Shown one piece after another: positions 7,735 to 64,000 of a stretch of 64,000 nucleotides of DNA. The stretch is from Acetobacteraceae bacterium (GTDB lineage Bacteria > Pseudomonadota > Alphaproteobacteria > Acetobacterales > Acetobacteraceae), in NCBI GenBank assembly GCA_947474705.1, contig CANJJS010000003.1, forward strand, positions 1 to 64,000. The letters are read 5' to 3'. A program made the translations under genes and the position numbers. The notes below the pieces were generated by a model, which made no database searches, was not told the origin of the DNA, and was given only the letters and a program-made list of their open reading frames with translations. The number at the start of each line of letters is the position of its first letter. The first letter of the stretch is position 1.

Positions 7735-8076
7735 ATGGCCGGTCGAATCGCCTTCGACGATTTCGAGAAAGTCGATATCCGCGTGGGCACCGTGATCGAT
7801 GCCCAACCGTTTCCCGAGGCGCGGAAGCCGGCGATCAAGCTGACGATCGATTTCGGGGCGGAGATCGGAGTGAAAAAATCCTCCGCGCAACTGACGGTGC
7901 ATTACCGGCCGGAGCAACTGGTGGGGCGCCAGGTCTGCGCCGTCGTGAATTTCCCGCCGCGGCAGATTGGACCGTTCATGAGCGAGGTTTTGACGCTTGG
8001 GATGCCCGACGCCGATGGCGCGGTGGTGTTGATCGCGCCGGATTTGAAAACTCCCAACGGCGGAAAACTGTTCTGA
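7735..8076 (+). CDS. csaA: CsaA, tRNA-binding chaperone-like protein
   Basis: This 113-residue protein is a single tRNA-binding (EMAP/TRBD-type OB-fold) domain of the usual CsaA length. Signature stretches are FEKVDIRVGTVIDAQPFPEA, SSAQLTVHY, and VVNFPPRQIGPFMSEVLTLG. The last is the conserved substrate-interacting segment. Members have been described as secretion-linked chaperones and as tRNA binders; which role applies here cannot be told. An AGGAGG site lies at 7721-7726. Its stop codon overlaps the start of gpt by one base, so the two are translationally linked. Confidence 0.95.
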   Translation: MAGRIAFDDFEKVDIRVGTVIDAQPFPEARKPAIKLTIDFGAEIGVKKSSAQLTVHYRPEQLVGRQVCAVVNFPPRQIGPFMSEVLTLGMPDADGAVVLIAPDLKTPNGGKLF

Positions 8077-8528
8077 TGGCGACGGCCTATTTGCCCGTCT
8101 CCTGGGAGCGGTTTCACGACGACGCGCGCGCGCTCGCGGAGCGGCAACGCGCGCTTGGCCCCTTCCGCGGGATCGTCGCGATCAGCCGCGGCGGCCTGGT
8201 GCCCGCGGCGATTCTGGCGCGGTCGTTGAAAATCCGTGTCGTCGAGACCGTTTCCGTCGTCGCCTACGACCAGGAAGACGGGGGCGAGGAGAAGCTTGGC
8301 GAGCCCAGGGTCGCGAAGCTCGCGGCGGCGGCGGGCGATGGCGAGGGGTTTTTGATTGTCGACGACCTCGTCGACACCGGCACCACCGCCCGCGTGGTGC
8401 GGGCGCTGTTGCCAAAGGCGAGATTTGTCTGCGTCTACGCCAAACCCGCGGGCCGCGCGCTGGCCGACGATGTTCTGACCGAGGTCACGCAGGACACCTG
8501 GATCGTTCTGCCATGGGAGGCGGATTAA
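8076..8528 (+). CDS. gpt: Xanthine-guanine phosphoribosyltransferase
   Basis: The 150-residue protein carries the type I phosphoribosyltransferase PRPP loop FLIVDDLVDTGTTA, and near the N-terminus FRGIVAISRGGLVPAAIL, which contacts pyrophosphate. The C-terminal DTWIVLPWEAD, with its conserved tryptophan for purine stacking, matches bacterial Gpt. It salvages xanthine and guanine to XMP and GMP in the cytoplasm. The gene overlaps csaA at its start. It converges on the peptide-binding protein gene so closely that the two stop codons overlap (8525-8528). Confidence 0.93.
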   Translation: MATAYLPVSWERFHDDARALAERQRALGPFRGIVAISRGGLVPAAILARSLKIRVVETVSVVAYDQEDGGEEKLGEPRVAKLAAAAGDGEGFLIVDDLVDTGTTARVVRALLPKARFVCVYAKPAGRALADDVLTEVTQDTWIVLPWEAD

Positions 8529-10114: not shown

Positions 10115-10186
10115 GCCGATATTCCTTTCCCGCTGGCACCGACTCCATCGGCGCCGTCCCGACTGGGAAAGTGGCCGGGGACCGCG

Positions 10187-11800: not shown

Positions 11801-11812
11801 GACAAATACCCC

Positions 11813-12793
11813 TTACCGGACTTCGTCGCACGCCACGATATGGCCGGGCCGGATTTCCCGGGGCTCCGGCCGTTGCTGTTTGCATTTCTCGACGGCCATC
11901 GGACAACGCGGATGAAACACGCAGCCAGACGGCGGATTCATCGGGCTCGGCACCTCGCCCTGCACCGGCCGGAAATCGCGCCCCTGTTCCACCGCCGGAT
12001 CGGGCACCGGCACCGCCGCCAGCAAGGCCCGCGTGTAAGGGTGCAACGGCGAGTCGAACAGCGAATCGCTGTCCGCCATCTCCACGATCCGGCCGAGATA
12101 CATCACCGCCACGCGCTGGCATAAATGCCGGACAACCGAGAGATCGTGCGCGATGAACAAATAGGTCAGGCCGAATTTCTCTCGCAGGTCTTCCAGCAGG
12201 TTCACCACCTGCGCCTGGATCGAGACATCCAGCGCGGAGACCGGCTCGTCGCAAACGATGAATTCCGGGTTCATGGCCAAGGCGCGGGCGATGCCGACGC
12301 GCTGGCGCTGGCCGCCTGACATTTCATGCGGGTAACGATCGGCGAAATTCGGGTTCAGGCCGCATTCGGACAGCAGTTCGCGGACCCGGGCCTCGCGCTT
12401 CTTTTTGTCGGGCTCGATGCCGTGGACATACATCGGTTCGGCGATGATTTCGCCGATCTTCATGCGCGGATTCAGGGAACTGTATGGGTCCTGAAAAATC
12501 ACCTGAATTTTCTGGCGGAATTTTTTCATCTCCGCCGCGTCCATGGCGGCGATGTTCTCGCCGTCGTAAATGATTTCCCCCTCGGTGGGTTTTTCCAGAC
12601 GTAAAATACAGCGGCCCGTGGTGGTCTTGCCGCAGCCGCTCTCGCCGACGAGGCCCATGGTCTCGCCGCGCGCGACGGTGAAATCGATGCCATCGACGGC
12701 CTTCACCTCGCCGGTGACACGGCGCCGGACGATGCCCTCGGTGACCGGGAAATGCATCCGCAGTCCGCGAACGGTAAGAAGAGGTCCGGTCAT
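11813..12793 (-). CDS. Oligopeptide-type ABC transporter ATP-binding protein (OppF/DppF-like)
   Basis: The 326-residue ATPase shows Walker [12 protein letters not shown], the Q-loop [13 protein letters not shown], signature [15 protein letters not shown], Walker [13 protein letters not shown] and the H-loop IAHDLSVV. The C-terminal extension carries cysteines in GCVFHPRCP, the iron-sulfur or metal-like motif found in OppD/OppF ATPases. The start [11 protein letters not shown] overlaps the upstream ATPase stop by four bases (ATGA). It energises import together with its partner ATPase. Confidence 0.93.
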
Positions 12794-50146: not shown

Positions 50147-52237
50147 ATGTCCGCCGCCCGCCAAACCACCCGCCTCGCCGTCGATATCGGCGGCACGTTC
50201 ACCGACCTCGCGCTGGAACATCCGGGCGGGCGGACAACGACGAAAGTTCTCACGACACCGGCCGCGCCGGAGCAGGGGGTCATGACCGGGGTCCGCGCCA
50301 TTCTCGCGTCGTCCGGAGTCGCGGCGGGGGACATCGACCTCATCGTCCACGGCACCACCCTGGCCACCAACGCGGTGATCGAGCGCAAGGGCGCCCGCAC
50401 CGCGCTGATCACCACCGAGGGTTTTCGCGATGTCATCGCGATGGGCAACGAAAGCCGTTACGACCAGTGCGACCTGAACATCGTGCTCCCCGAACCGTTG
50501 GTACCCCGCCATTTGCGCCTGCCGGTGGCGGAGCGACTCGACAACACCGGCGCGGTGCTGAAGCCGCTCGACGAGGACGGGGTCCGCGCCCTGGTTCCGC
50601 GGCTGAAAGCGGAAGGCGTGGAAAGCCTCGCCATCGGTTTCCTGCATGCCTTCGTGAACCCGGCCCATGAACAACGGGCCGCGGCGATCCTGAAAGACGC
50701 CCTGCCGGACATCCAGATTTCCCTGTCGTCCGAGGTCTCGCCGGAAATGCGCGAATGGGAACGGTTCTCCACGACCGTCGCCAACGCCTACGTCCAGCCG
50801 ATGATGGCCCGCTATCTCCGCCAGTTGGAAACGGATTTTCGAAACGCGGGCTTTCGGGCGCCCTTGTTCCTGATGATGTCCGGCGGCGGCCTGACGACCG
50901 TCGAGACCGCGTGCCGCTTTCCCATCCGCCTGGTGGAAAGCGGGCCGGCCGGGGGCGCGATCTTCTCCGCCCATATTTCCCGGGAATGCGGGTTGGCGCA
51001 CGTGCTGTCCTTCGACATGGGCGGCACCACCGCGAAGATCTGTTTGATCGACGATTACCGGCCGCAGACATCGCGGACGTTCGAGGTCGCGCGTGTCGGC
51101 CGTTTCCGCAAAGGCTCCGGCCTGCCGCTGCGCATCCCCGTGATCGAGATGGTGGAAATCGGCGCCGGTGGCGGCTCCATCGCCCATGTCGACTCGATGT
51201 CGCGGATCGAGGTTGGGCCGGAAAGCGCCGGTGCCGATCCGGGGCCCGCCTGTTACGGCCGCGGCGGCACGAAGCCCGCGGTGACAGACGCGAATTTGAC
51301 ACTCGGACGATACGATCCCGCGACCTTCGCGGGCGGCTCCATGCCATTGTACGCCCAGGCGGCAAGGGATGCATTGGCGGGGGCGATCGGGGCGCCACTG
51401 GGACTCACGCCGGACATCGCCGCCGTCGGCGTGGTGGAAATCGTCGACGAGAACATGGCCAATGCCGCCCGCGTCCATGCGATCGAATCGGGAAAGACCT
51501 ACGAAGGCCGGACCATGATCGCCTTTGGCGGCGGCGGGCCAGTGCACGCCTGCCGCATCGCCGAAAAAGTCGGAATTCATCGGATTTTGGTGCCCTCCGG
51601 CGCCGGTGTCGGCAGTGCCATCGGCTTTTTGCGGGCGCCGGTGGGGTACGAGGTCGTGCGCAGCCTGTATCAACGGCTCTCCATCTTCGACACCGGCGCG
51701 GTGAACACGCTGCTTTCGTCGATGCGGGAGGAAGCCGCGGCGGTGGTCGAACCCGGACGGCTCGGCGCGGACCTGTCGGAAACCCGCATCGCCTTCATGC
51801 GCTATGTCGGGCAGGGTCACGAAATTCCGGTGCCATTGCCCGCGCGGACGCTCTCGGCGGACGATGTTTTCGACATTCGCGCCGCTTACGATCGCGAATA
51901 CGCCAAATTCTTCGACCGCGCCGTGCCCGGTTCGGACATAGAAGTGCTGAGTTACGCCGTCGTGCTGACGACTCCGGCGCAGGAGATCGCGGCGGCGGGA
52001 ACGATGGCGGCGTCCACCACGGCCGCGCCGGTGGGCCAACGGATCGTGCGCGATACCGCGACCGGCGAGACCGCCGCCTGGGCCATCCACGACCGCGCCG
52101 CCATGGCGCCGGGCACGCGCGTCGCGGGTCCCGCGATTATCGCCGAGGACGAAACCTCCACGCTGGTCGGACCGGGCTGGCAGGCAATCGTGAACAGTCT
52201 CGGATATCTGGAACTTTCGAAAGGAGCGGCGGCATGA
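50147..52237 (+). CDS. hyuA: Hydantoinase/oxoprolinase family protein, subunit A
   Basis: The 696-residue protein is the ATP-binding subunit, with two actin-like phosphate loops: VDIGGTFTDLALEHPGG at the N-terminus and FDMGGTTAKICLIDDY near residue 290. A LIVHGTTLATNAVIERKGAR segment lies between them. Such enzymes open N-methylhydantoin, hydantoin or 5-oxoproline rings, or carboxylate acetophenone or acetone. It overlaps subunit B by four bases. Confidence 0.92.
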   Translation: MSAARQTTRLAVDIGGTFTDLALEHPGGRTTTKVLTTPAAPEQGVMTGVRAILASSGVAAGDIDLIVHGTTLATNAVIERKGARTALITTEGFRDVIAMGNESRYDQCDLNIVLPEPLVPRHLRLPVAERLDNTGAVLKPLDEDGVRALVPRLKAEGVESLAIGFLHAFVNPAHEQRAAAILKDALPDIQISLSSEVSPEMREWERFSTTVANAYVQPMMARYLRQLETDFRNAGFRAPLFLMMSGGGLTTVETACRFPIRLVESGPAGGAIFSAHISRECGLAHVLSFDMGGTTAKICLIDDYRPQTSRTFEVARVGRFRKGSGLPLRIPVIEMVEIGAGGGSIAHVDSMSRIEVGPESAGADPGPACYGRGGTKPAVTDANLTLGRYDPATFAGGSMPLYAQAARDALAGAIGAPLGLTPDIAAVGVVEIVDENMANAARVHAIESGKTYEGRTMIAFGGGGPVHACRIAEKVGIHRILVPSGAGVGSAIGFLRAPVGYEVVRSLYQRLSIFDTGAVNTLLSSMREEAAAVVEPGRLGADLSETRIAFMRYVGQGHEIPVPLPARTLSADDVFDIRAAYDREYAKFFDRAVPGSDIEVLSYAVVLTTPAQEIAAAGTMAASTTAAPVGQRIVRDTATGETAAWAIHDRAAMAPGTRVAGPAIIAEDETSTLVGPGWQAIVNSLGYLELSKGAAA

Positions 52238-53952
52238 ACGCGCTGACCCAGATCCATCGTCAGGTCATGTGGAACCGGCTGATCGCGGTGGTCGAGGAAC
52301 AGGCGCGGATCATGATCCGCACCGCCTTCTCCACCACGGTGCGCGAAGCGGGCGATCTGTCGGCGGGGATTTTCGACCTCCAGGGACGGATGATGGCGCA
52401 GGCGGTGACGGGGACGCCGGGTCACGTGAACTCGATGGCGGAGAGCGTCGGCCATTTCCTGGCGAAGTTTCCGGCGGCCTCCATGAAACAGGGCGACCAC
52501 TACATCACCAACGATCCCTGGTTGGGCACCGGCCATCTGCACGATCTCACGGTCGTCAGTCCCGCCTTTTATAAGGGTGAGGTCGTCGGCCTCTTCGCCA
52601 ACACGGCCCATGTCATCGACATCGGCGGACTGGGCATGGGACCGGAGGGGCGGTCCGTGTTCGAGGAAGGCATGTACATCCCGATCGTGAAATGCTTCGA
52701 CCAGGGTGTCCCCAACGAAACCTTCTTCGACTTCATGCGCGCGGGCTCCCGCCTGCCGGTCGAACTGGAAGGCGATATTTATTCGCTCTGCGCCTGCAAC
52801 GACGCGGGTGCGCGCCGCCTCGTGGAAATGATGGACGAATTCGGGATGGACGGACTCGATCCGCTGGCGGACTTCATCTTCGAGAATTCCCGGCGGGCGA
52901 CACTGGCCGAGATCGCGAAGCTGCCGCGCGGCGAATTCAGCGGGGAAATCTGGTCGGACGGGTACGAGGAGCCGGTGCGGTTGTCGGCGCGAATGACGAT
53001 CGGCGCCGACGCGATCGACGTCGATTTCGCGGGGACCTCGGGCCTGTCGTCGCGCGGGATCAACGTGCCGGCGGCTTATTGCCGGGCCTACGCCTGTTTC
53101 GGGCTGAAATGCGTCGTGGCGCCGGAGATCCCGAACAACTGGGCTTCGCTGGCGCCTTTCCGGATGGACATCCCGGACGGGTGCATTCTCAACGCGCCGC
53201 GGCCTTACCCGGTGTCCGTGCGGCATGTGATCGGCCATCTGCTGCCCGATCTGATGATGGGGTGTTTGCACCAGGCGATTCCGGACCGGGTGACGGCAGA
53301 GGGGGCCTCGTCGCTGTGGAACCCGCCTTTGCGCGGCGGGTCTTCGGTGTCCGGCCAAGCGCGCGGCAACAGGCCGGTGATCGGGGATTTCGAGATCATC
53401 ACGTTCAATTCCGGCGGCACCGGGGCGCGGCCCGGCGGCGACGGGTTGAACGCGACGGCGTTTCCCTCGGGCGTGCGGACGATGCCGGTGGAAGCCACGG
53501 AAAACGTCGCGCCCATCGTGATCTGGCGAAAGGAGCTAAAACCCGACTCGGGCGGGGCGGGGCGGACGCGGGGCGGCACCGGACAGATCATGGAGATCGC
53601 CACCAAGGGCGACCTGGAATTTTCCGTGAATGCCAGCTTCGACCGGATCGCGCACGCGCCGCGGGGACGCGAGGGCGGCCTGGACGGCGCCGCGGGGGTG
53701 GTGACCCAGAAGTCCGGCAAGGTGCTGCGGACCAAGGGATACCAGGTCATCCCCGACGGCGACCGGCTGATCCTGGAACTGCCGGGCGGCGCCGGCATGG
53801 GCGATCCGGCGACTCGCGATCCGGACCTGGTGGCGCGGGATGTCCGGGACGGGCTGGTCTCGGCCGGTGTGGCGCGCGAGGTCTACCGTGTCGCGGTGGG
53901 CCCGGACGGGGCGGTCGATCGTGCCGGGACCGAGGACTCGCGGCGGCGTTGA
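52234..53952 (+). CDS. hyuB: Hydantoinase/oxoprolinase family protein, subunit B
   Basis: The 572-residue protein is the second subunit, with VMWNRLIAVVEEQARIMIRT at the N-terminus, DHYITNDPWLGTGHLHDL near residue 90 (a metal-ligand region), and GGAGRTRGGTGQIMEI near 440. The residues GGAGMGDPATRD at the end match the family. It works with HyuA; the substrate cannot be read from sequence. The ATG overlaps the hyuA stop and follows GGAG at 52222-52225. Confidence 0.92.
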   Translation: MNALTQIHRQVMWNRLIAVVEEQARIMIRTAFSTTVREAGDLSAGIFDLQGRMMAQAVTGTPGHVNSMAESVGHFLAKFPAASMKQGDHYITNDPWLGTGHLHDLTVVSPAFYKGEVVGLFANTAHVIDIGGLGMGPEGRSVFEEGMYIPIVKCFDQGVPNETFFDFMRAGSRLPVELEGDIYSLCACNDAGARRLVEMMDEFGMDGLDPLADFIFENSRRATLAEIAKLPRGEFSGEIWSDGYEEPVRLSARMTIGADAIDVDFAGTSGLSSRGINVPAAYCRAYACFGLKCVVAPEIPNNWASLAPFRMDIPDGCILNAPRPYPVSVRHVIGHLLPDLMMGCLHQAIPDRVTAEGASSLWNPPLRGGSSVSGQARGNRPVIGDFEIITFNSGGTGARPGGDGLNATAFPSGVRTMPVEATENVAPIVIWRKELKPDSGGAGRTRGGTGQIMEIATKGDLEFSVNASFDRIAHAPRGREGGLDGAAGVVTQKSGKVLRTKGYQVIPDGDRLILELPGGAGMGDPATRDPDLVARDVRDGLVSAGVAREVYRVAVGPDGAVDRAGTEDSRRR

Positions 53953-54184
53953 CCGCCCGCGCGTGAGAACGTAAAGAGAACATTCACAGCCTGTGGTACC
54001 CGGGGAGAACACCCCGGGAACGCCATTGTCTCCTTTCGCGGGAGACGGTCAGGATTTAGAGTCGCGTCTCGGTCAGGCGTTGCAGATCGGCCACAACCGC
54101 CCTATGTTGTGGTTCACCCCGGCACAATCTCTACATGATGTGTTCCGAATCACTCTGGCGGCCCGCTAAAGGACACCTCGAAAA
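53953..54184. other. Leader region upstream of nrdA
   Basis: Besides the two NrdR-like boxes, this stretch contains two small hairpins, CCCGGGG/CCCCGGG near 54000-54020 and GTCTCC/GGAGAC near 54028-54046. They lie upstream of the boxes and downstream of hyuB, and could end the hyuB transcript, but neither is followed by a U-run. Confidence 0.4.
54097..54143 (+). promoter_or_regulatory. Tandem NrdR-like boxes upstream of nrdA
   Basis: Two 16-base sites fit the NrdR consensus ACACWATATATWGTGT: CCGCCCTATGTTGTGG (54097-54112) and TCTCTACATGATGTGT (54128-54143). Their starts are 31 bases apart, the spacing typical of paired NrdR boxes on one face of the helix. The first box also forms part of a 7-bp dyad, CCACAAC/GTTGTGG (54091-54097 with 54106-54112). 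NrdR is the nucleotide-sensing repressor of ribonucleotide reductase genes, so repression of nrdA when dATP is plentiful is expected. Confidence 0.65.
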
Positions 54185-56071
54185 ATGATGCACGCCACGG
54201 AGGCCGATATGCTCGATGCCGTTCAGATGCCGGGTCGCCACCAGGTTCGGGTCGATCGAACCCGCGATTCTCTGATCACGGATTTCGGCCGCGCGACGCT
54301 GACCGACCGCTATTTGATGCCTGGCGAGGAGTTTCAGGACCTGTTCGCCCGCGTCGCCTCGTTTTATGGCGACGACGCCGGCCACGCCCAGAGAATTTAC
54401 GATTACATGAGCCGGTTGTGGTTCATGCCCGCGACGCCCGTCCTGTCGAATGGCGGCACCCAGCGCGGCCTGCCGATCTCCTGCTTTCTCAACGAGGCCT
54501 CGGACAGCCTGGAAGGCATTGTCGGCCTATGGAACGAGAATGTCTGGCTGGCCTCCAAGGGCGGCGGCATCGGGTCGTACTGGGGCAATTTGCGGTCGAT
54601 CGGGGAGAAAGTGGGCGCGGTCGGCAAGACCTCCGGCGTCATTCCCTTCATCCGGGTCATGGACAGCCTGACGCTGGCGATTTCGCAGGGGTCGCTGCGC
54701 CGCGGCTCGGCCGCCGTGTATCTGCCGATTTCGCATCCGGAGATCGAGGAATTCGTCGAGCTGCGCCGGCCCACCGGCGGCGATCCGAACCGCAAGGCGC
54801 TGAACCTGCACCACGGCATTCAGATCCCCGACTCGTTCATGCGCGCTGTGGAAGCGGACGAGCCTTGGCCGCTGCTGTCGCCCAAGGACAAATCCGTTGT
54901 CCGCTCGATTTCCGCGCGGTCTCTGTGGATCCGTATCCTGACGGCGCGAATCGAAACCGGCGAGCCGTATTTGGTGTTCTCCGATCATGTGGCGCGCGCC
55001 CAGCCGGAACACCACAAGCTGGCGGGTCTGGAGGTCAAAACGTCCAATTTGTGCAGCGAGATCACGCTGCCCACCGGCAAGGATCATCACGGGGTCGAGC
55101 GCACGGCCGTGTGCTGCCTGTCCTCGCTGAACCTGGAAAACTGGTTCGAGTGGGAGAACCATCCGACGTTCATCGAGGACGTGATGCGTTTCCTCGATAA
55201 CGTGTTGCAGGATTTCATCGACCGCGCGCCCGCCGGCATGGAAAAGGCCCGTTACGCCGCCATGCGCGAACGCTCCGTCGGGTTGGGGGTCATGGGGTTC
55301 CATTCGTTCCTTCAGGCGTTGAACGTGCCGTGGGAAAGCGTCGTGGCGAAAGTCTGGAACAAGCGAATTTTCAAACATATTCGCGGGCAGGCCGACACCG
55401 CCTCGATCGTGCTGGCGGAAGAGCGTGGCGCCTGTCCGGACGCCGAGGAATACGGCAGCAAGGAACGCTTTTCGCACAAGATGTCGCTGGCGCCGACCGC
55501 CTCGATTTCGATCATCGCGGGCAATGCCTCGCCGGGGATCGAGCCGATCGCGGCCAATGTTTTCCTGCAAAAGACATTGTCCGGCAGTTTCACGGTGCGC
55601 AACCGTCACTTGCAAAAGCTGCTGGCGGAAAAAGGTCAGGATAACGATGCCGTGTGGTCGTCGATCACGACCACCAAGGGCAGCGTCCAACATCTCGATT
55701 TTCTCACGGCCGACGAGAAGGCGGTTTACAAGACCGCGTTCGAGCTGGATCAGCGCTGGATCGTCGAGCATGCCGCCGACCGGGCGCCGTTTATTTGCCA
55801 AAGCCAGTCGGTGAACGTGTTCCTGCCGGCGAACGTGAACAAGCGCGATCTGCACCAGATCCATTTCATGGCCTGGAAGCGTGGCGTCAAATCGCTGTAT
55901 TATTGCCGCAGCCTGTCGATCCAGCGGGCGGATACGGTCAGCGATAAGGCCATCGCGCCGGTGGACAATATTGGGCGGGCGGCGAACGATATCGCGATCC
56001 CCTTGCCGCTGGTGGCGGCGGCCGCGTCGGGCAATCCGACGGATTACGAGGAATGTTTGGCCTGTCAGTGA
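54185..56071 (+). CDS. nrdA: Class I ribonucleoside-diphosphate reductase, alpha subunit
   Basis: The 628-residue protein has the reductase barrel: PATPVLSNGGTQRGLPISC with the first redox cysteine near residue 100, the active-site TSNLCSEITLPTG and the partner cysteine in TAVCCLSSLN. The tyrosine pair in KSLYYCRSLS (radical-transfer path) is present, and the C-terminal shuttle cysteines are in ECLACQ. It is shorter than E. coli NrdA and has no full N-terminal ATP cone, which suggests no dATP inhibition through that domain. It makes dNTP precursors with a NrdB radical subunit, which is not adjacent. Confidence 0.93.
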   Translation: MMHATEADMLDAVQMPGRHQVRVDRTRDSLITDFGRATLTDRYLMPGEEFQDLFARVASFYGDDAGHAQRIYDYMSRLWFMPATPVLSNGGTQRGLPISCFLNEASDSLEGIVGLWNENVWLASKGGGIGSYWGNLRSIGEKVGAVGKTSGVIPFIRVMDSLTLAISQGSLRRGSAAVYLPISHPEIEEFVELRRPTGGDPNRKALNLHHGIQIPDSFMRAVEADEPWPLLSPKDKSVVRSISARSLWIRILTARIETGEPYLVFSDHVARAQPEHHKLAGLEVKTSNLCSEITLPTGKDHHGVERTAVCCLSSLNLENWFEWENHPTFIEDVMRFLDNVLQDFIDRAPAGMEKARYAAMRERSVGLGVMGFHSFLQALNVPWESVVAKVWNKRIFKHIRGQADTASIVLAEERGACPDAEEYGSKERFSHKMSLAPTASISIIAGNASPGIEPIAANVFLQKTLSGSFTVRNRHLQKLLAEKGQDNDAVWSSITTTKGSVQHLDFLTADEKAVYKTAFELDQRWIVEHAADRAPFICQSQSVNVFLPANVNKRDLHQIHFMAWKRGVKSLYYCRSLSIQRADTVSDKAIAPVDNIGRAANDIAIPLPLVAAAASGNPTDYEECLACQ

Positions 56072-56077
56072 TGGCGG

Positions 56078-56105
56078 CGGCCCGGATCGTCGCCGATCCG
56101 GGCCG
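56078..56105 (+). terminator. Rho-independent terminator of nrdA
   Basis: A perfect 11-bp stem (CGGCCCGGATC at 56078-56088 with 56095-56105, loop GTCGCC) starts seven bases after the nrdA stop and is followed by TGTTTTCGTTTC. It separates nrdA from the convergent solute-binding gene. Confidence 0.88.
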
Positions 56106-56120
56106 TGTTTTCGTTTCGGA

Positions 56121-56852
56121 TCAGGCCAGCGGCGCCACGGACAACCGCCCGACCGTGCCGTGCTTCTTGATCAGTTCCGCGACCGCGCCAGACTTCTTCG
56201 CGTCCTCGACGAATTTTTTCAGATACGCGAACCCCGCCGCGTTCTTCTTCGCCGTGCCGATCGCCTGCTGCACCGCCGTGAACTGACCGTCCAGAATCCG
56301 CGAACCCGGCATTTTCTCGACATCGCCGATCAAGCCCGGACGCAGACCCGCCAGGGCCTCCATCTTCTCCTTCTGGAACATCTCGATCACCGCCGCCTGG
56401 CTGTTGCCGCGCACCAGCGTCGCGTGATGAATATTCCGCTCCAGCCACAGATCGTAGGCGCTGCGCGCGGTCACCGCGATGCGGTTGCCCTTCACGTCCA
56501 CCTGCGCGATCGATGTGATCGGCGAGCCGGCGGGCACCAGATACGTCGCCTCGATCTCCACATAGGCCGCCGTGAAGTCGATCTTTTCGGCGCGCGCGGG
56601 CTCGGCGCCGATATTGCCGATGTCCCACTTATCGTTATCGACGTCGTCGGCCAGTTCGCCCGGCTTGGCATAGGGTACGAATTGCACCGGCACGCCCAGC
56701 GACGCCGCGATCGCGCGCGCCATGTCGGGCGAGCAGCCATCGGGATCGCCGTTCGGCATTTTGCCGGTGACGAGGAGGAAGTTTCCCATATTGATCGCCG
56801 CGCGCAAAACGCCATGCGGCGCCAGCTCGGCGATGACCTGCGATTGAGACAT
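56121..56852 (-). CDS. Family 3 solute-binding protein without signal peptide
   Basis: The 243-residue protein has the family 3 (amino-acid/opine type) binding fold: GVLRAAINMGNFLLVTGKMP, then FVPYAKPGELADDVDNDKWDI, AYVEIEATYLVPAGSPI and the hinge NRIAVTARSAYDLWL. Family members are normally secreted, but this one starts MSQSQVIAELAPHGVL with no hydrophobic leader, and an in-frame TAA two codons upstream of the ATG rules out a longer start. No permease or ATPase gene adjoins it. It may be a cytoplasmic binder or sensor, or an orphan with a lost leader. Confidence 0.82.
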   Translation of the reverse strand: MSQSQVIAELAPHGVLRAAINMGNFLLVTGKMPNGDPDGCSPDMARAIAASLGVPVQFVPYAKPGELADDVDNDKWDIGNIGAEPARAEKIDFTAAYVEIEATYLVPAGSPITSIAQVDVKGNRIAVTARSAYDLWLERNIHHATLVRGNSQAAVIEMFQKEKMEALAGLRPGLIGDVEKMPGSRILDGQFTAVQQAIGTAKKNAAGFAYLKKFVEDAKKSGAVAELIKKHGTVGRLSVAPLA

Positions 56853-56930
56853 TGGTTAAGGTCCAAAGTTTGTTGACACGCCAAGGTATCCTCCCAGACC
56901 CAAAGCGGGCAAGGGCGAGATCGGCCGTTC

Positions 56931-57075
56931 CCAGGGCAATCGGACGAAGGAAGGAAAGCCTTGGGGCTCCGCCCCCGAGAGCCGCGAAGCGGATCGCGCC
57001 CGCGAGGGGCGTCGCCCCTTCGAACCCCACCAGGGCGGGGGCCCTGGGACTCTCTTCCTTCGCCCGATTGGCCTG
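56931..57075. repeat. Palindromic repeat unit related to the 13.9-kb repeats
   Basis: About 145 bases are bounded by imperfect inverted arms (56931-56953 against the reverse complement of 57053-57075, 21 of 23 matching; the arm begins CCAGGGCAATCGG). The core shares TTGGGGCTCCGCCCC and ACCCCACCAGGGCGG with the unit at 13872-13941. The element lies between two genes on the same strand. It probably belongs to a dispersed REP-like family of this genome. Confidence 0.7.
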
Positions 57076-57114
57076 GCCGCTCCCTGGCAGACACGCCAGG
57101 CGCGGCGCGAAGGC

Positions 57115-58047
57115 TCACACCACGCGATGGAGCAGAGGCTCTCCGGCCGCCAAACGGCGGCAGTTTTCGGCGGCGAGACAAAAACTCCGGTCGAAGGTTC
57201 CCGTGGTGATCCAGGCGATATGCGGCGTCGCGACGACATTCGGCAGCGCCAGCAGCGGCTCGCCGGCCGGGACCGGTTCGTCGGGGAAAACGTCCAGACC
57301 GGCGCCCGAGAGGTGGCCCGTCCGCAGCGCCGCGGCCAGGGCGGCGGAGTCGACCAGACCGCCGCGGGCGGTGTTGATCAGGATGGCGTCCGGTTTCATT
57401 CGGGCGATGGCGTTGGCGTCCAGCAACCCCGCGGTCTCCGGGTTCAGCGGCACATGCAGGCTGACCACGTCCGATTGCGCCAGCAGCGCGTCCAGCGTCG
57501 CGAAACGCCCGGCGGCGTCCGCGGCCGGCGCGCGGGCGGTATAAACGACATCGCACCCCATGGCCGCCAGAACCGGGGCGAGCAGGCGTGGGATCGCGCC
57601 ATACCCGACCAGCCCCACGACTCGCCCGCCCAGTTCGCCGGGTCCGTCGCGTAGCGCGAGATCGGTCCACACGCCGGCGCGCAGGGAGGCGTCGAAGCGC
57701 GGGATTTTTCGCAACACCGCCAGCATCAGCGCGAGCGCCAGTTCCGCCACCGCGCGCGCGTTCGTGCCCGGCAGGTTGCACACGGGAATGCCGCGGGATT
57801 TCGCCGCGTCCAGATCGATCGTGTTCACGCCGACGCCGATTTTCTGGATCAATCGCAGGTTCGGCGCCGCCGCGATCGTCTCCGCCGCGCAGGGCGCCAG
57901 CACGTGCCACAACACCTCGCAATCCGGCAGTAGCCGCGCCAGCCGCGCCGGGTCGTCGTCCGGGCAAATCTCCACGCTCAGGCCCGGCAACGCGGCGAGC
58001 CGGGCGGTCAGATCGGGACCGGCGGAATCGTGGTAAACGATTTTCAT
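57115..58047 (-). CDS. D-isomer-specific 2-hydroxyacid dehydrogenase family protein
   Basis: The 310-residue protein has the NAD-binding motif VVGLVGYGAIPRLLAPVL (the last glycine of GxGxxG is Pro) and the catalytic Arg (INTARGGLVDSAAL), Glu (LDVFPDEPVP) and His (VATPHIAW). The N-terminal PCAAETIAAAPNLRLIQKIGVGVNTID is standard. It should oxidise a D-2-hydroxyacid or reduce the matching keto acid. It overlaps the enolase-like gene by four bases (ATGA) and is the last gene of the operon. Confidence 0.9.
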   Translation of the reverse strand: MKIVYHDSAGPDLTARLAALPGLSVEICPDDDPARLARLLPDCEVLWHVLAPCAAETIAAAPNLRLIQKIGVGVNTIDLDAAKSRGIPVCNLPGTNARAVAELALALMLAVLRKIPRFDASLRAGVWTDLALRDGPGELGGRVVGLVGYGAIPRLLAPVLAAMGCDVVYTARAPAADAAGRFATLDALLAQSDVVSLHVPLNPETAGLLDANAIARMKPDAILINTARGGLVDSAALAAALRTGHLSGAGLDVFPDEPVPAGEPLLALPNVVATPHIAWITTGTFDRSFCLAAENCRRLAAGEPLLHRVV

Positions 58048-59333
58048 GCCCGCGACCGGCCCAGGACCGAGCCGCCGGCGAAACGGGCGCGGGCGCCAAG
58101 GGCTTCCTCGACCCGCAGCATTTCGTTCCACTTGGCCATGCGCTCGCCTCTTGTGAAACTGCCGACTTTCAACTGTCCGGCGGCCCAGCCAACGGCGAGG
58201 TGAACGATCGTCGTGTCCTCGGTTTCGCCGGAGCGGGCGGAGACGATGGCGGAGAAACCGGTTTCCTTGGCCGCGGTCCAGGCGGCGAGGGTTTCGGTCA
58301 GGGTGCCCCGCTGGTTCGGTTTCAGCAGCACGGTGTTCGCGGCGCCTTTCGCTGCGGCGGCGCGGACACGGGCGGCGTCGGAGACCAGAAAATCGTCGCC
58401 AACGATCTGCAACGATTTGCCGTGGATGCGGGTGAATTCGGCGAACCCCTCGGGGTCGTCCTCCGCCAGCGGGTCCTCGATCGACAGGATCGGGTATTTG
58501 GAAATCCATCCCGACAACAGATCGATCATACCGGCGCTGTCGAGTTCGCGTTCCTCCAGCGCCAGCTTGTAACGCCCGCCGCGGCCGAACTCCGACGAAG
58601 CGATATCCAGCGCGATCCCCACCTGTTCGCCCAGACGGTAGCCCGCGCGTTCGATCGCGCGGACCAGCATGTCCAGCGCCTGTTCGTTGGTGGAGAACAT
58701 AGGCCACCACCCGCCCTCGTCCGCCACACCGGCCAAAGTCCCGGCTTCGGCCATCAGTTTCCCGGCGGCGCGATAGACTTCCGCGGTCCATTCCAACGCC
58801 TGTGCGAAGCTGTTCGCGCCGGGACACATCACCATGAAGTCCTGAATATCGACACGGCGTCCGGCGTGCGCCCCACCCCCAAAAATCTGGATTTGCGGCA
58901 GGGGGATCAGGTCGGCATCCTTGCCCGCGAGATAGCGGAACAAGGGCTGGCCCGAATCATGCGCCGCCGCATGCGCCGCCGCCATCGACACGGACAGGAC
59001 CGCGTTCGCGCCCAGACGGGACTTGTTCGGCGTGCCATCCAGCGCGATCAGCCGCGCGTCCAGCGCCGCCTGGTCCCGCGCGTCCATGCCTGTGACCGCG
59101 CGCGCGATTTCCGTGTTCACATTGGCGATCGCGTGCTGGACGTCGTAGCCGCCGAAGGCCTCGCCGCCGTCGCGCAGATCGACCGCCTCGCCACTGCCGG
59201 TGGAGGCACCGGCGGGCGCGATGGCGCGGCCGGAAAATCCGTTTTCCAGCAGGATGTCGGCCTCGACCGTGGGGCGGCCGCGGCTGTCCCAGACCCGGCG
59301 GGCGTGGACGAAGGCGATGGCGGTGTCGGTCAT
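58044..59333 (-). CDS. Divergent enolase-superfamily protein (phosphopyruvate hydratase-like)
   Basis: The 429-residue protein has the enolase length and layout: HARRVWDSRGRPTVEADILL, an APAGASTGSGEA loop, ADEGGWWP (catalytic Glu), ALDIASSEF, SIEDPLAEDD and VGDDFLV (metal ligands), LLKPNQRGTLTET (catalytic Lys) and QLKVGSFTRGER. Three substrate-side residues differ from true enolases: SHRSGETED is SARSGETED, VDIQEFM is VDIQDFM, and GSREA is GSGEA. The chemistry is probably kept but the substrate changed. It overlaps both its kinase and dehydrogenase neighbours by four bases. Confidence 0.85.
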   Translation of the reverse strand: MTDTAIAFVHARRVWDSRGRPTVEADILLENGFSGRAIAPAGASTGSGEAVDLRDGGEAFGGYDVQHAIANVNTEIARAVTGMDARDQAALDARLIALDGTPNKSRLGANAVLSVSMAAAHAAAHDSGQPLFRYLAGKDADLIPLPQIQIFGGGAHAGRRVDIQDFMVMCPGANSFAQALEWTAEVYRAAGKLMAEAGTLAGVADEGGWWPMFSTNEQALDMLVRAIERAGYRLGEQVGIALDIASSEFGRGGRYKLALEERELDSAGMIDLLSGWISKYPILSIEDPLAEDDPEGFAEFTRIHGKSLQIVGDDFLVSDAARVRAAAAKGAANTVLLKPNQRGTLTETLAAWTAAKETGFSAIVSARSGETEDTTIVHLAVGWAAGQLKVGSFTRGERMAKWNEMLRVEEALGARARFAGGSVLGRSRA

Positions 59334-60316
59334 GCGGCGAGTTCCTTGCTCCAGGCCTCGCTTATCGCGGCGAGGCGGGACGGCGGATCGGTCAGCAGCG
59401 CGCGCGCCACGCGGCGGACGCGGTCTTTCTGGGAGTCTTCGACGAGGTATTCGACGGGCGATTTGCCATCGACGCGGGCGAGCAACAGGCCTGGCAGCAG
59501 CAGCGCGGCCCGGTGCTCCAGCGCATCCGGCGACTCCCATGCCACGCCCCTAAGATATGTGGCGCGCATCGCGTCGTAACAAGCGAGGAACAAGTCGCGC
59601 GCGGCGGGTGTCCACAGGCATTTCAACAGCAAATGGTTCAGGCAGAAGGCCAGATCGAAGGCCGGATCGCCCCACCACGCGCATTCCGCGTCCAGGAACA
59701 CCGGTCCATGCGGGCCGCGCAAAATATTCTTCGGGCTGACATCGCCATGCACCAGCGCCTTTTTGTTCGTCTGTGTCCGCGCGATCGCCGCCAGCAGCGG
59801 GTCCGCCAGATCGGGATGCGCGCGCGCCGTCGCGGCGAGGTAGGGTTCCAGCCGAATGTCGTAAAAAATCGTGTCGGTTGGAAATTCCGCCGCGATCGCG
59901 GGATCGGCGGCCGTCGCGGCGTGAATCCCGGCCAACGCCGCGGCCACCAAAGCCGCGAAGTCCGGATCGGCGGTCCCGGCGCGCAGTTGCTCCTTCCACA
60001 GCGCGTAACGGTCCGGCGGCAGAAACGCCATCGCCAGGACGCCGCTTTGTTCGTCCTGGCCGATCAGGCCTGGCGCGAAATCGCCGGCGTGCCGCATCCA
60101 GCGGGCCTCGTACATGTTGCGCTCCACCGGCGCGCGCCAATCGGCGGCGACACGGAGTTTTGGGAGCGCCCGTTTGACGCAGATCGCGCCGGCCGGAAAA
60201 TCGACGCGCCAGATGTCGGAGGAAACGCCACCGGTCAGCCGCTCGCCCATGACCGCGCCTGGCAGGCGCAGGCGTTCCAACGCTTCGACGATCGCGGCGG
60301 GCAGAGCTTCGAGCAT
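59330..60316 (-). CDS. Aminoglycoside-phosphotransferase (APH) fold kinase
   Basis: The 328-residue protein has the APH kinase motifs: the lysine-bearing strand ICVKRALPKLRV near residue 45, Brenner-type ALVHGDVSPKNIL (HGDxxxxN) near 190, and VFLDAECAWWGDPAFDLAF (the DxE/DFG position). The fold phosphorylates small hydroxyl compounds such as sugars, choline or methylthioribose. Position in the operon suggests that it phosphorylates a hydroxyacid or sugar acid that the enolase-like enzyme then uses. It overlaps the latter by four bases. Confidence 0.85.
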   Translation of the reverse strand: MLEALPAAIVEALERLRLPGAVMGERLTGGVSSDIWRVDFPAGAICVKRALPKLRVAADWRAPVERNMYEARWMRHAGDFAPGLIGQDEQSGVLAMAFLPPDRYALWKEQLRAGTADPDFAALVAAALAGIHAATAADPAIAAEFPTDTIFYDIRLEPYLAATARAHPDLADPLLAAIARTQTNKKALVHGDVSPKNILRGPHGPVFLDAECAWWGDPAFDLAFCLNHLLLKCLWTPAARDLFLACYDAMRATYLRGVAWESPDALEHRAALLLPGLLLARVDGKSPVEYLVEDSQKDRVRRVARALLTDPPSRLAAISEAWSKELAA

Positions 60317-60367
60317 GCCGGGTTTAGGGGCCGGTTCGCCGCCGCGGTCAAGAGCGAGCGGCCGGCA

Positions 60368-61228
60368 TCACCGGCGCCGCTCCCGGTTCGCCGTATAGAG
60401 TCCGCTGGCCACGATGATCGCCGCGCCCGTCAGCGTCCATTCGTCCGGCAACGTGCCGAAGACCAGAAATCCCGCGATCGCCGTCCACAACAATTGCATG
60501 TAGGAATAGGGCGCCAGCGTCGAAACCGGCGTATAGCGCAACGCCAAAATCACCAGCCATTGCCCCATCGACGACAGAATGCCCTGGCCGATCGACAGGA
60601 CCAGTTGCATCGGCGTCGGCGGGACGAACGCGAAGGGCACGATCGCACTCAGCAGGACCAGGCCGGAGACCGCGGACCAGAACATGGTGGTTTCCGCCCG
60701 TTCCGTCGCCGTCATGCGCCGGGTCAGGATGACCCCGATCGACCAGAACAGCGCCGAGGCGACGCGGTACAACCCCTCGGGGTGAAAGGTTCCGGTGCCG
60801 GGACGCAACACCACCAAAACGCCCAGCATGCCGCCCGCCAGCGCGATCCAGCGTTTCGCGTCCACCTTCTCACCCAATAATGGGATCGACAAAAACGTCA
60901 CCAATATCGGTCCGATGAACCCGATCGTCGCCGCCTCCGCCAGGCTGACGTCGCGGATGCCCATCACGAACAGCAGAGAGGAACAGACCAAACACACGCC
61001 GCGCAGGAGTTGCAGGCCCGGCGCGCGCACATAAAACGAGGCCCCTCGGAGCCGTGTCGTCAGCATGAACGCCATCAGCGCGAAGACGACATACCGGGTC
61101 CACGCGATCTGCACGATCGCCAACTCGCCCGCCAGCTTCTTGGCGATCGTGTCGGCGACACAGAAGATCACCGAGGCGATGAGATTGAGCCAAATACCGC
61201 GCAGCGGCTGGTTAACATGTCCACTCAC
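60368..61228 (-). CDS. EamA/DMT-family transporter
   Basis: The 286-residue protein has ten hydrophobic helices in two repeats of five (first half LRGIWLNLIASVIFCVADTI, second half beginning near PEGLYRVASALFWSIGV), the drug/metabolite transporter layout. Each half contains the conserved loop with RAETTMFW or similar. It could export or import the substrate of the neighbouring kinase. The start is GTG 61228 (encoding SGHVNQPLRG); an ATG at 61218 is possible. The gap of 51 bases to the kinase gene fits a shared operon. Confidence 0.88.
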   Translation of the reverse strand: MSGHVNQPLRGIWLNLIASVIFCVADTIAKKLAGELAIVQIAWTRYVVFALMAFMLTTRLRGASFYVRAPGLQLLRGVCLVCSSLLFVMGIRDVSLAEAATIGFIGPILVTFLSIPLLGEKVDAKRWIALAGGMLGVLVVLRPGTGTFHPEGLYRVASALFWSIGVILTRRMTATERAETTMFWSAVSGLVLLSAIVPFAFVPPTPMQLVLSIGQGILSSMGQWLVILALRYTPVSTLAPYSYMQLLWTAIAGFLVFGTLPDEWTLTGAAIIVASGLYTANRERRR

Positions 61229-61300
61229 GGTTTCCGGCGTCCTCCCGCGGCGATCATACCAGACCTGGGGGGGCCGTGTCGCCCATGCCCGGCCCTGAGG

Positions 61301-62395
61301 TCAGGCCGCTTCCAGCAGGATCGCCTCCAATACCGTCGACTGCCGCATCGCGTTCAACCGCGCGCCGGCGGCCTGGAAACCCGCGGCGGCGAGGCGGGCC
61401 GCCAGGCCAGGGTCCGTGCTCAGCCGCCGCATGGCCGCGGCCAGAGAGACCGCGTCGCCCGGCGCCACCAGCAGGCCCGTGACCTCCGGCTCGATCGCTT
61501 CGGCGATGCCGCCCTCGGCGGTGCCAATCACCGGGCACCCGCGCGCCATCGCTTCCGGCACGACGCTGGGCAGACCCTCGGCATCGCCCCCCACGGCGAT
61601 CACGCTGGGCACCAGCAACGCATGGGCCCTTTCCATCCGCGCCGCGAGTTGGGGCTGGGAGAGCCAGCCCGCCAGTTCCACGCCGGGCACGTCGCGCGCC
61701 AGGGCTTCCAGCACGGGCCGCAACGGGCCGTCGCCGGCGCAAACCAGGGGGGTCGTGTCGCCCGCCGCCCGCAGCCGGCGTATAGCGTCGGCCATCGGCG
61801 CGATGCCCTTCTTTTCCACGAACCGGCCGGCGAACAGAAACCCGCCGTCGCGCGCGCCAAGGGGAAGGGCCGGCGGCACCTCCACACCGATCGGCAGCAC
61901 GGTCAACAGGCGATCCGGCACGCCGCGCCGGGCCGCCGTGGCCGCGACGGCGTGCGAGACGCACACAAAACGGTACGCGCGCGCCACGACCTCCGGCCAT
62001 CGCCGCGCCAGCATTGTGTGGCGCCAGTTCTTGTCCTTGCCGACATCGCCGCCGTGCAGCGTCACCACCAGACGGGCGTCCAGGGCCCGTGCCAGCGGCA
62101 GGGACAGCGCCCCGCCGCGGGCGAATTGCGCGTGCACGACCCGCGCGTAACCCGTCAGATCCAGGCCGGGGTTCAGGCCAAGGTGGCGGAACAGCAGGCC
62201 GCGCAAACCGCCGATGCGTTGCAACGATCCGCCCAGCTCCGTCGCGCCGGGCAAAAATGTCCGGCCCGTCCAGACCGGCCGCAGCGTGCGAAAATTCACA
62301 TATTGTCTGCGGGAGAACGCGATTTCCGACGGCGCGCCAATCCGATCCCGATAAACCAGGAGCGGTTGACGTGAATCGATGGCATCAGCGGGCAT
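61301..62395 (-). CDS. GT4-family glycosyltransferase
   Basis: The 364-residue protein has two Rossmann-like halves: VVHAQFARGGALSLPLARAL and LVVTLHGGDVG in the first, and FLFAGRFVEKKGIAPM then EGLPSVVPEAMARGCPVIG in the second, where the EGLPxxxxEAMA motif binds the sugar nucleotide. VCVSHAVAATAARRG is the usual linker helix. It probably adds a sugar to a lipid or surface glycan; donor and acceptor are unknown. The ATG 62395 lies downstream of a structured leader with its own promoter. Confidence 0.87.
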   Translation of the reverse strand: MPADAIDSRQPLLVYRDRIGAPSEIAFSRRQYVNFRTLRPVWTGRTFLPGATELGGSLQRIGGLRGLLFRHLGLNPGLDLTGYARVVHAQFARGGALSLPLARALDARLVVTLHGGDVGKDKNWRHTMLARRWPEVVARAYRFVCVSHAVAATAARRGVPDRLLTVLPIGVEVPPALPLGARDGGFLFAGRFVEKKGIAPMADAIRRLRAAGDTTPLVCAGDGPLRPVLEALARDVPGVELAGWLSQPQLAARMERAHALLVPSVIAVGGDAEGLPSVVPEAMARGCPVIGTAEGGIAEAIEPEVTGLLVAPGDAVSLAAAMRRLSTDPGLAARLAAAGFQAAGARLNAMRQSTVLEAILLEAA

Positions 62396-62444
62396 GATGG
62401 GCGCGTCATAGCAGCCGGGACGCGGGCACCGCCATGTGGGGGAC

Positions 62445-62579
62445 GCGAAAAGCCCGAACGGCGCCCCGGGAAATCGGCGTCCGAAAACCGGACCCCGGGG
62501 CGCCTTTGGGCATAATGTCGTGCGGTGGCGGCGCTGCGCCGCTTCAAATCGAGGATGGCTTGAAATGCGGCCCGTCAAT
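62445..62579 (-). ncRNA. Candidate small RNA or attenuated leader RNA
   Basis: On the minus strand a good promoter is followed by about 130 bases with three hairpins and then a terminator-like end. In order these are a TTCAA/TTGAA hairpin, the perfect GCGGCG-CAG-CGCCGC stem (62526-62540), and the 11-bp GC stem at 62460-62504 followed by GGGCTTTTCGCG. No protein of any length is evident in this stretch. It could be a free small RNA or a transcription attenuator in front of the glycosyltransferase. Only transcript mapping can tell. Confidence 0.45.
62460..62504 (-). terminator. GC hairpin with U-rich tail
   Basis: The arms GGCGCCCCGGG (62460-62470) and CCCGGGGCGCC (62494-62504) are perfectly complementary over 11 bp, with a short outer extension GCCC/GGGC. 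On the minus strand the stem is followed by GTTCGGGCTTTTCGCG. It lies in the leader of the glycosyltransferase gene, downstream of the predicted promoter, so it can act as attenuator or as RNA end. Confidence 0.65.
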
Positions 62580-62585
62580 GAGCCT

Positions 62586-62613
62586 ATTATTCATATAAAA
62601 GGAATTATGTCAA
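62586..62613 (-). promoter_or_regulatory. Sigma70-type promoter
   Basis: Reading leftward, TTGACA (62613-62608) is a perfect -35 box, and AATAAT (62591-62586) matches the -10 consensus at five of six positions, with 16 bases between. The stretch 62580-62620 is strikingly AT-rich in this GC-rich genome. It starts about 40 bases after the AraC gene ends, and would fire into the leader of the glycosyltransferase operon. Confidence 0.6.
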
Positions 62614-62650
62614 CATAAATCTCGCCTGACCCGCCATTGGCATGGCCTGG

Positions 62651-63694
62651 TCAGCGCGGATCCGCGCCGTTCGCCCTCGGCCGCAAATCCCGCATCCAAT
62701 CGTTGATGAACGTCTCATGTCTGGGCGCGAAGGCCAGGTCCGCCCGGCCCCGCGCCTCGCTGGGCGACATGCCGAACGCGCGACGGAAGGCGCGGCTGAA
62801 ATGCGCGTCGGAGGCGAAGCCGGCCGCGAACGCGATCTCCCCCTGCCGGCGATGTGCCTGGCCCGGATCGGTCAGCGTCGCGAGGCAATGGCGCAGCCGC
62901 CGCGCCTGGATATAGCTGACGATGCCATCCTCATCCTCGAACAACCGGTACAGCCGGGCCCGCGAAATCCCGAACTCCCGCGCCAGCATTTCCGGTCCCA
63001 GCAATGGCGAGCCAATGTGGCGGTCGATGAAGTCGCGGATCGCCTGACCCACCGCCGCGGCGCGCGCGGCGGCGATGTGCTCCCGCGCTCTGGGCGCGGC
63101 GCCCAGACAGGCCGCCACCAGTTGCACTGTCCCGGCGGCCAGCGCTTCCCGATCCGCCTCGCCGAGCACCGGACCCGTGTCGGACAAGGTGCGGAGATGC
63201 GCGGCCAGGATCGCGGCCAGCGGAGTCTCGCCCGGCAGCACCAGGCCATGCAACCCATCGGGACGCGCGAGCAACGGCGCCAGCGTGGCCCGCGGAATGG
63301 TCAGCGAGATGTTTTCGAAGTCGGTGTTGAACGTGTGAAACGGCTGGCCCAGGTCGATGATCTTGATGTCGCCGGGCCGCACCGTGTTGCGAATCTCGCC
63401 ATAGGCGCCGTCGCAGACCCCGCGCCGGTAGACCTGCACCAAATAGTGGTCCAGGCCCTCCGCCGCGATCAGCCGCTTCGACCGTACGAAGCCCTGCGCG
63501 TCGGCCGCCGCGTCCACCAGCAACACATCGCCCAAATTCAGCGCGCGGGCGCGGGCGTTCAGGTTTTTCGGCGCGCGCATGTCCGGGAAGGACGGTTCGA
63601 ACACCGCCGAGATCAGCGTCCGCCACGCGTCGTAGCGGTCGGCCGGAGGCAGGCCATGTGTCGAAAAGGACGCCAACGGTTGCGCGGAAGCCAT
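62651..63694 (-). CDS. AraC-family transcriptional regulator
   Basis: The 347-residue protein has an N-terminal AraC-binding-like domain (about residues 20-200, with YLVQVYRRGVCDGAYGEI and VRPGDIKIIDLGQPFHTF). A C-terminal AraC/XylS double helix-turn-helix follows: GPEMLAREFGISRARLYRLF, then GEIAFAAGFASDAHFSRAF and RRAFGMSPSEAR. The first domain is the kind found in FeaR-like regulators. Targets and inducer are unknown. It is divergent from nothing in the window; a Hint-domain gene lies upstream on the same strand, 41 bases away. Confidence 0.9.
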   Translation of the reverse strand: MASAQPLASFSTHGLPPADRYDAWRTLISAVFEPSFPDMRAPKNLNARARALNLGDVLLVDAAADAQGFVRSKRLIAAEGLDHYLVQVYRRGVCDGAYGEIRNTVRPGDIKIIDLGQPFHTFNTDFENISLTIPRATLAPLLARPDGLHGLVLPGETPLAAILAAHLRTLSDTGPVLGEADREALAAGTVQLVAACLGAAPRAREHIAAARAAAVGQAIRDFIDRHIGSPLLGPEMLAREFGISRARLYRLFEDEDGIVSYIQARRLRHCLATLTDPGQAHRRQGEIAFAAGFASDAHFSRAFRRAFGMSPSEARGRADLAFAPRHETFINDWMRDLRPRANGADPR

Positions 63695-63735
63695 TTATTT
63701 CTACTTTGTTTCGAAATCCTGAACCCGCCTCAACT

Positions 63736-64000
63736 TCATCCGCGGCCCGCGTCCGCGTCAAGCGCGAAGTTCTCGAATTCCAGAAAATCCAGCCCGGCGC
63801 GCACCGAGTCCAGTATGGCGCCATGGACCACCAGCGGCGCGCAGCCCTGGGCTTCCCAGATCGCGGACACATGGTTCGGCGGCATCGAGAAATCGGGCCA
63901 AAGCCGCGTGGCACCCTCGCTGTTTTCGAAATTCGCGCGATTGCCGGTGTCGAGGAACGATTCCGCGGGCAAGCCTTCCGCCAGCACCACGTCGTGTTCC
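63736..64000 (-). CDS. Hint-domain protein, C-terminal part (runs off window)
   Basis: The frame is open to the window edge and reads EHDVVLAEGLPAESFLDTGN and then RANFEN before a less conserved tail with GCAPLVVHGAILDSVRAGLDF. This matches the end of the Hint (hedgehog/intein-like) domain seen in large Acetobacteraceae surface or hypothetical proteins. Hint domains catalyse protein self-processing. Only about 88 residues are visible; the start and any N-terminal domain lie beyond the edge. Confidence 0.72.
   Translation of the reverse strand, partial: EHDVVLAEGLPAESFLDTGNRANFENSEGATRLWPDFSMPPNHVSAIWEAQGCAPLVVHGAILDSVRAGLDFLEFENFALDADAGRG

Follow-up and report, generated by a model that had tools for sequence, protein, structure and literature searches.

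A kinase and a diverged enolase paralogue encoded side by side as a candidate two-step hydroxy-acid module in Acetobacteraceae and other Pseudomonadota

The first 64,000 nucleotides of contig CANJJS010000003.1 from an Acetobacteraceae bacterium (GenBank assembly GCA_947474705.1), a stretch called the window throughout, encode a small-molecule kinase of the APH family directly upstream of an enolase-like protein. The latter is a diverged paralogue of enolase that forms a distinct group. As the best explanation of this gene pair we propose, with slightly less than even confidence, a two-step module that would activate and then dehydrate a small 2,3-dihydroxy acid; a kinase-then-dehydration module in general, with no substrate named, appears likely from sequence and gene order. 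Phosphoenolpyruvate (PEP) as the product of the module has an even chance in our judgement, and L-glycerate, converted via 2-phospho-L-glycerate, is the tentative first choice of substrate. Many soil and water bacteria encode such a pair, which probably channels an uncommon small sugar acid into their central metabolism.

The paralogue contains the Enolase_N and Enolase_C domains (Pfam), and the nearest solved enolase is 4yws (E 6e-126). The metal ligands D243, E286 and D313 are kept together with Lys338, Glu206 and Lys389, which we take to be the equivalents of K345, E211 and K396 in yeast enolase, and all of them are invariant in an alignment of 31 rows (A1). Two other active-site residues are changed: Asp165 replaces a catalytic Glu and Ala366 an active-site His (presumably E168 and H373 in yeast numbering) in 92/92 paralogues, and Glu and His, respectively, occupy these positions in 17/17 other enolases. 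These exchanges might suggest a non-catalytic protein that regulates or scaffolds the kinase, but this is hardly credible given the invariance of the remaining catalytic residues and metal ligands in A1. A function resembling that of carboxyphosphonoenolpyruvate synthase, another diverged enolase, was rejected as well; no phosphonate genes were recognised. Altogether, 27 positions separate the paralogues (n = 92, window included) from the other enolases (n = 17), namely E168D, H373A and 25 more. In a fraction of 0.99 of the paralogues, Trp210 (close to the catalytic Glu) and Arg160 (part of the His loop) are each new, and this loop bears two near-invariant Arg residues (0.92 and 0.99). E168D, H373A, the Trp and the two Arg, all in the active site or close to it, fit a substrate other than D-2-phosphoglycerate. 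A preliminary description of the locus, made from the DNA letters and their translations, had held that the metal ligands, the catalytic Glu and the catalytic Lys are retained. This is true of the ligands, Lys338 and Glu206, but only half right for the Glu, because the change from DIQEFM to DIQDFM replaces a second catalytic Glu. Among the three substrate-side changes listed there, SARSGETED and DIQDFM proved diagnostic (92/92 paralogues, 0/17 other enolases), but the third, GSREA to GSGEA, lies outside the 27 group-separating positions.

In a quick maximum-likelihood tree, the paralogues are split from the housekeeping enolase of the same genome and from the other enolases by a single branch with a Shimodaira–Hasegawa-like approximate likelihood ratio test (SH-aLRT) value of 97. 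The 17 comparison enolases were this housekeeping copy and those of L126 and L129–L143 (collected loci are numbered with L, genomes with G). The tree and the position count contain the window protein once, entered as WINDOW in place of L002 and L003, and L001, and omit all other loci up to L032 (L006 and L032 included), L068, L084, L098, L109, L119, L144, L147 and proteins outside 400–470 aa. The Sphingobium protein of L116, which has the same Asp and Ala changes and a similar gene cluster, sits on a long branch at an uncertain place outside the main group. Some related genomes carry a further class of enolase copy (L141, L142, L143 and L144, at about 4001–5290); three of these retain the His motif, and none was found in L144 by motif search.

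The paralogue is not the only enolase of its genome (205 contigs, 99.27% complete), which encodes an ordinary second copy with the usual SHRSGETED and DIQEFM motifs on contig C131. The paralogue is present in 36 of the 118 genomes that were searched as relatives, and 26 of these carriers belong to the 33 genomes of the window's genus. A further enolase match is present in all 28 carriers that are at least 90% complete; four of the 8 less complete carriers have one too, and the other four (G002, G013, G016, G023) show the paralogue alone. The protein thus resembles enolase (EC 4.2.1.11) in its domains, metal ligands, base Lys, acid Glu and a TIGR01060 score above the cut-off, but differs from it in E168D, H373A and the 25 further positions, in the kinase that is nearly always encoded beside it and in the presence of a second enolase copy in the genome.

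In 79 of 80 loci from alphaproteobacteria, betaproteobacteria and some genomes labelled gammaproteobacteria, the kinase gene shares the strand of the paralogue and lies upstream of it, and in 77 of these it is at most 300 bases from the matched stretch; the gene group is therefore not due to chance. These loci are the best 80 of 193 confirmed ones, picked by similarity to the window protein, and hence lean to close relatives. The sole locus of the 80 without a kinase is L102, and in L078 kinase and paralogue are separated by other sequence that includes a cupin gene. Just downstream of the paralogue of L102, an IlvD-like dehydratase gene was recognised by eye (8067–11076). Where gene calls were made, the paralogue was called in 95 loci and the kinase, in plus direction, in 79; these pairs overlap by 4 bases in 39 cases, are spaced by 0–100 bases in 27, overlap otherwise in 3 and are farther apart in 10. 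The calls used a home-made codon score, so that starts may be misplaced and genes missed, and seven plasmid regions lacking annotation were read as DNA only. Kinase and paralogue look broken on one Rhizobium plasmid (L119, 6998–9321), with an annotated IS6 transposase nearby.

Two draws of 398 genomes over the Pseudomonadota found the paralogue (E ≤ 1e-135) and the kinase (E ≤ 1e-50) in the same 9 genomes, at cut-offs set above other enolases and other APH proteins, by which distant members such as L116 (48% identity) are missed; the draws were seen to coincide for the listed genomes, 369 genomes without a match being listed in neither. The two genes are direct neighbours in 7 of the 9 genomes, and G219 and G156 have them on opposite strands at distances of 4.6 and 7.8 kb, so that the link is independent of adjacency. 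The second enolase, the conservation of the pair across alpha- and betaproteobacteria and this co-occurrence support the earlier proposal that the kinase and the enolase-like protein, the latter with a new function, may act in sequence.

All of the first 15 solved fold matches (Foldseek) of the AlphaFold2 (AF2) model of the kinase, which has a predicted local distance difference test (pLDDT) score of 95.0, are 5-methylthioribose kinases (MtnK), with template modelling (TM) scores of 0.77–0.82 by query length. Despite this likeness, identity to these enzymes is 15–17%, and the score against the MTRK model is 39.5 bits, far below its curated cut-off of 275. The motifs HGDVSPKN and DAEC occur in the kinase alignment (A2). 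Pfam found no match in the kinase to the glycerate kinase classes PF13660 and PF02595, only APH and, below its cut-off, Fructosamin_kin. As 5-methylthioribose kinases have the nearest fold, the kinase may plausibly phosphorylate a hydroxyl group of a small, polyol-like acid. Kinase and paralogue both look soluble.

In the window, the pair belongs to a confirmed group of four genes (Table 1) whose proteins match APH, Enolase_N/C, 2-Hacid_dh and EamA in Pfam. The positions given in the preliminary description were borne out by the gene coordinates, as were the 4-base overlaps (ATGA) of kinase with enolase and of enolase with dehydrogenase and the gap of 51 bases between the drug/metabolite transporter (DMT) gene and the kinase.

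Table 1. Genes of the group and altered active-site codons, in window coordinates
Feature	Position	Strand	Basis or remark
DMT/EamA transporter	60368..61228	-	GTG start; PF00892
APH-family (methylthioribose-kinase-like) small-molecule kinase, 328 aa	59330..60316	-	PF01636 50.4 bits
Enolase paralogue, 429 aa	58044..59333	-	PF00113/PF03952; TIGR01060; group-separating positions; tree
Codon of Asp165 (in place of catalytic Glu, presumably yeast E168)	58839..58841	-	
Codon of Ala366 (in place of active-site His, presumably yeast H373)	58236..58238	-	
D-isomer-specific 2-hydroxyacid dehydrogenase, 310 aa; frequent, optional partner	57115..58047	-	PF02826/PF00389

The view that all four genes form one unit held for kinase and enolase, and in some genomes for the dehydrogenase, but not for the transporter. 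The dehydrogenase, which has both the catalytic and the NAD-binding domain, occurs in 31 of the 80 loci, directly downstream in 24 and elsewhere in 7, the latter including three weak matches of 33–40% (L054, L078, L101). As a partner it is thus recurrent, but optional and of two subfamilies, since the rhizobial and Burkholderiales loci carry a different one. No match to the DMT transporter was found beside the pair in the window's relatives (L004–L062, L068 and L106), 57 of these 61 loci holding at least 300 bases upstream of the kinase; the remaining L009, L035, L059 and L061 hold fewer than 200 and are uninformative on this point. The transporter was consequently rejected as a member of the unit, and its suggested part in the pathway was not borne out: of the four genes, it is the transporter alone, and not the kinase (79/80), that related genomes fail to keep in place. 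In 9 of the 80 loci, eight labelled betaproteobacterial and one Pseudomonadota only, the gene immediately after the enolase is a different DMT gene (36–40% identity), and a transporter link is therefore possible. The solute-binding-protein-like gene of family 3 on the minus strand (56121–56852; PF00497), whose open reading frame (ORF), read by eye, shows no obvious signal peptide at its start, was likewise rejected as a member, as matches to it occur only in L002 and L003, both of them the window itself. ORFs on the plus strand (50147–53952 and 54185–56071) resemble, by eye only, hydantoinase/oxoprolinase A and B subunits and a ribonucleotide-reductase-like protein.

Three types of neighbourhood surround the pair in other genomes. 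In a first type, kinase, paralogue, an FAH-family hydrolase and a short-chain dehydrogenase/reductase (SDR) stand in a row (L114, L115, L119 with its broken genes, L125, L145, L161), pointing to sugar acids. The hydrolases of L125, L114 and L161 reach 368, 352 and 334 bits against the model for 2,4-didehydro-3-deoxy-L-rhamnonate hydrolase, below its cut-off of 500, and the best solved relative of the L114 hydrolase is L-2,4-diketo-3-deoxyrhamnonate hydrolase (E 2.4e-81). L125 also encodes a UxuA-like dehydratase and an SMP-30 lactonase, of both of which L119 holds fragments, and L161 has, besides a sugar transporter, a protein resembling galactonate dehydratase (275.9 bits, cut-off 311). TRAP-transporter and DUF6807-like genes accompany kinase, paralogue and FAH gene in L084, L097 and L112, the last two with the dehydrogenase and two GFO/IDH oxidoreductases in addition; here Pfam was run on L112 only, and the other two were read by eye or by tblastn. 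Many other loci show neither this nor the two further types described below. In L090, a pyruvate-kinase-like gene was recognised by eye (11060–12481, minus strand) about 1.8 kb from the pair and on the other strand.

The first type resembles the non-phosphorylating route for L-fucose and L-rhamnose (FucF and FucG; LRA5 and LRA6), in which an SDR and a hydrolase split a 2,4-diketo-3-deoxy acid into pyruvate plus a hydroxy acid (PMC11199699). The same paper states that L-2,4-diketo-3-deoxyfuconate yields pyruvate and L-lactate, and that the 4-dehydrogenase of the L-fucose route also accepts L-2-keto-3-deoxygalactonate (PMC11199699). The acid released there, L-lactate, lacks a 3-hydroxyl, whereas here a kinase and an enolase follow. 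Because only glycerate possesses this 3-hydroxyl, it suits enolase chemistry and lactate does not. A 6-hydroxylated L-sugar acid, processed by chemistry of the FucF/FucG type, would give pyruvate and L-glycerate, and in several lineages hydrolysis of a 2,4-diketo-3-deoxy sugar acid may thus set the acid free alongside pyruvate. The methylthioribose-kinase-like protein would then move the phosphate of ATP to the 2-hydroxyl, converting L-glycerate to 2-phospho-L-glycerate, and the paralogue, which retains its two metal sites as well as the base Lys and acid Glu, would remove water to form a phosphoenol acid, in this case PEP. Where present, the dehydrogenase probably interconverts the hydroxy acid and the matching 2-keto acid. 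As a product, PEP agrees with the PEP carboxylase of rhizobial loci. In the CpgD paper, L-2-phosphoglycerate is one in vitro substrate of a cytidylyltransferase that prefers D-2-phosphoglycerate (PMC12275187).

Several observations weigh against L-glycerate and the proposed module, in the protein itself, in the host genomes and in the two further types of neighbourhood. The paralogue scores 498.9 bits against the NCBIfam model of phosphopyruvate hydratase (TIGR01060; cut-off 300), and its AF2 model has active-site loops of low confidence (154–156 and 205–209 under 50). Sugar-acid genes were not recognisable by eye in the window, where, in contrast to the L-fucose/L-rhamnose route, a reading of the ORFs at 52000–64000, with no search made, revealed neither an FAH-family hydrolase nor an SDR beside the pair. 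Moreover, the dehydrogenase family makes D-2-hydroxy acids, by which D-glycerate would fit better than L-glycerate. The nearest solved relatives of the dehydrogenase are phosphoglycerate and glycerate/glyoxylate dehydrogenases, in keeping with a dedicated D-glycerate branch like that of the serine cycle: here the dehydrogenase would reduce hydroxypyruvate to D-glycerate, the APH-type kinase would form D-2-phosphoglycerate, and the paralogue would supply PEP for PEP carboxylase. In the second type of neighbourhood (L113, L117, L118), PEP carboxylase, dehydrogenase and kinase run together near the paralogue, a cupin, an HpaD-like dioxygenase, an alcohol dehydrogenase (ADH) and an FAH gene. PEP carboxylase was confirmed in L113 (1113.7 bits, cut-off 815), where its gene shares a single minus-strand run with those of dehydrogenase and kinase, and the four enzymes parallel the serine-cycle segment from hydroxypyruvate to oxaloacetate, although with an APH-type instead of a GckA-type glycerate kinase and with an altered enolase. 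Complete PEP carboxylase was seen in these 3 of 94 loci, with a partial gene at the edge of L121 and another occurrence in L157; the genomes concerned are Rhizobium, Pararhizobium and one other. We consider the D-glycerate branch unlikely, as the source genome already holds a class-II glycerate kinase (PF13660, contig C2; PF02595 was not found in it) as well as an enolase, and a protein that has lost E168 and H373 should be impaired in ordinary enolase activity. PF13660 is present in 43 of 59 genomes; since none was found in the carrier G076 (93% complete), the class-II kinase does not always accompany the pair.

The HpaD-like dioxygenase, cupin and ADH recur in L078, L113, L116–L118 and L120–L122, of which L078, L116, L120, L121 and L122 have related gene sets but show no complete PEP carboxylase in the stretch covered. 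They point to an aromatic compound and leave glycerate unexplained. A larger, aromatic-derived acid that differs in its C3 substituent or leaving group is nevertheless very improbable as the substrate: HpaD-like dioxygenase and FAH relatives lie near the pair in 8 of 94 loci, those of L113 scoring 275.6 bits for HpaD (cut-off 321.4) and 183.1 bits for the C-terminal HpaG model (cut-off 276.4), but the dioxygenase is missing in the other 86, and the acid catalyst Glu206 is kept. In the third type, seen in four Acetobacteraceae loci (L035, L036, L062, L106), a DUF1537-type kinase gene comes after the dehydrogenase, followed in L106 directly by a PdxA gene; these loci point to four-carbon acids. 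Threonate, erythronate or tartrate could be phosphorylated at O2 and converted by a widened enolase to a 3-substituted PEP analogue. E168D and H373A cut bulk at positions presumably near the leaving group, and the two near-invariant Arg of the His loop would agree with such a substrate. Yet the rhizobial operon, with its PEP carboxylase, speaks for PEP itself, and no enzyme for a PEP analogue was recognised, so that we regard a four-carbon acid as rather doubtful.

A full-text search of the open-licence literature in PubMed Central (PMC) found no paper on the kinase–paralogue pair. Its component families are known; their combination and the altered enolase look new. Automatic annotation names these paralogues 'phosphopyruvate hydratase', so that metabolic models would assign them to ordinary glycolysis. 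It is conceivable, and put forward tentatively here, that the enolase family proper includes a second, widespread enzyme. It would dehydrate 2-phospho-L-glycerate, or a different 2-phospho hydroxy acid, supplied by an APH-type kinase dedicated to this task, and the two enzymes would constitute a new route by which L-glycerate derived from L-sugars reaches PEP. Should the pair have a substrate of its own, an enolase family regarded as having a single function would gain a second enzyme and a known kinase family a role in hydroxy-acid metabolism. The proposed route, if true, would explain how some bacteria recover the carbon of the hydroxy acid left by non-phosphorylating sugar degradation.

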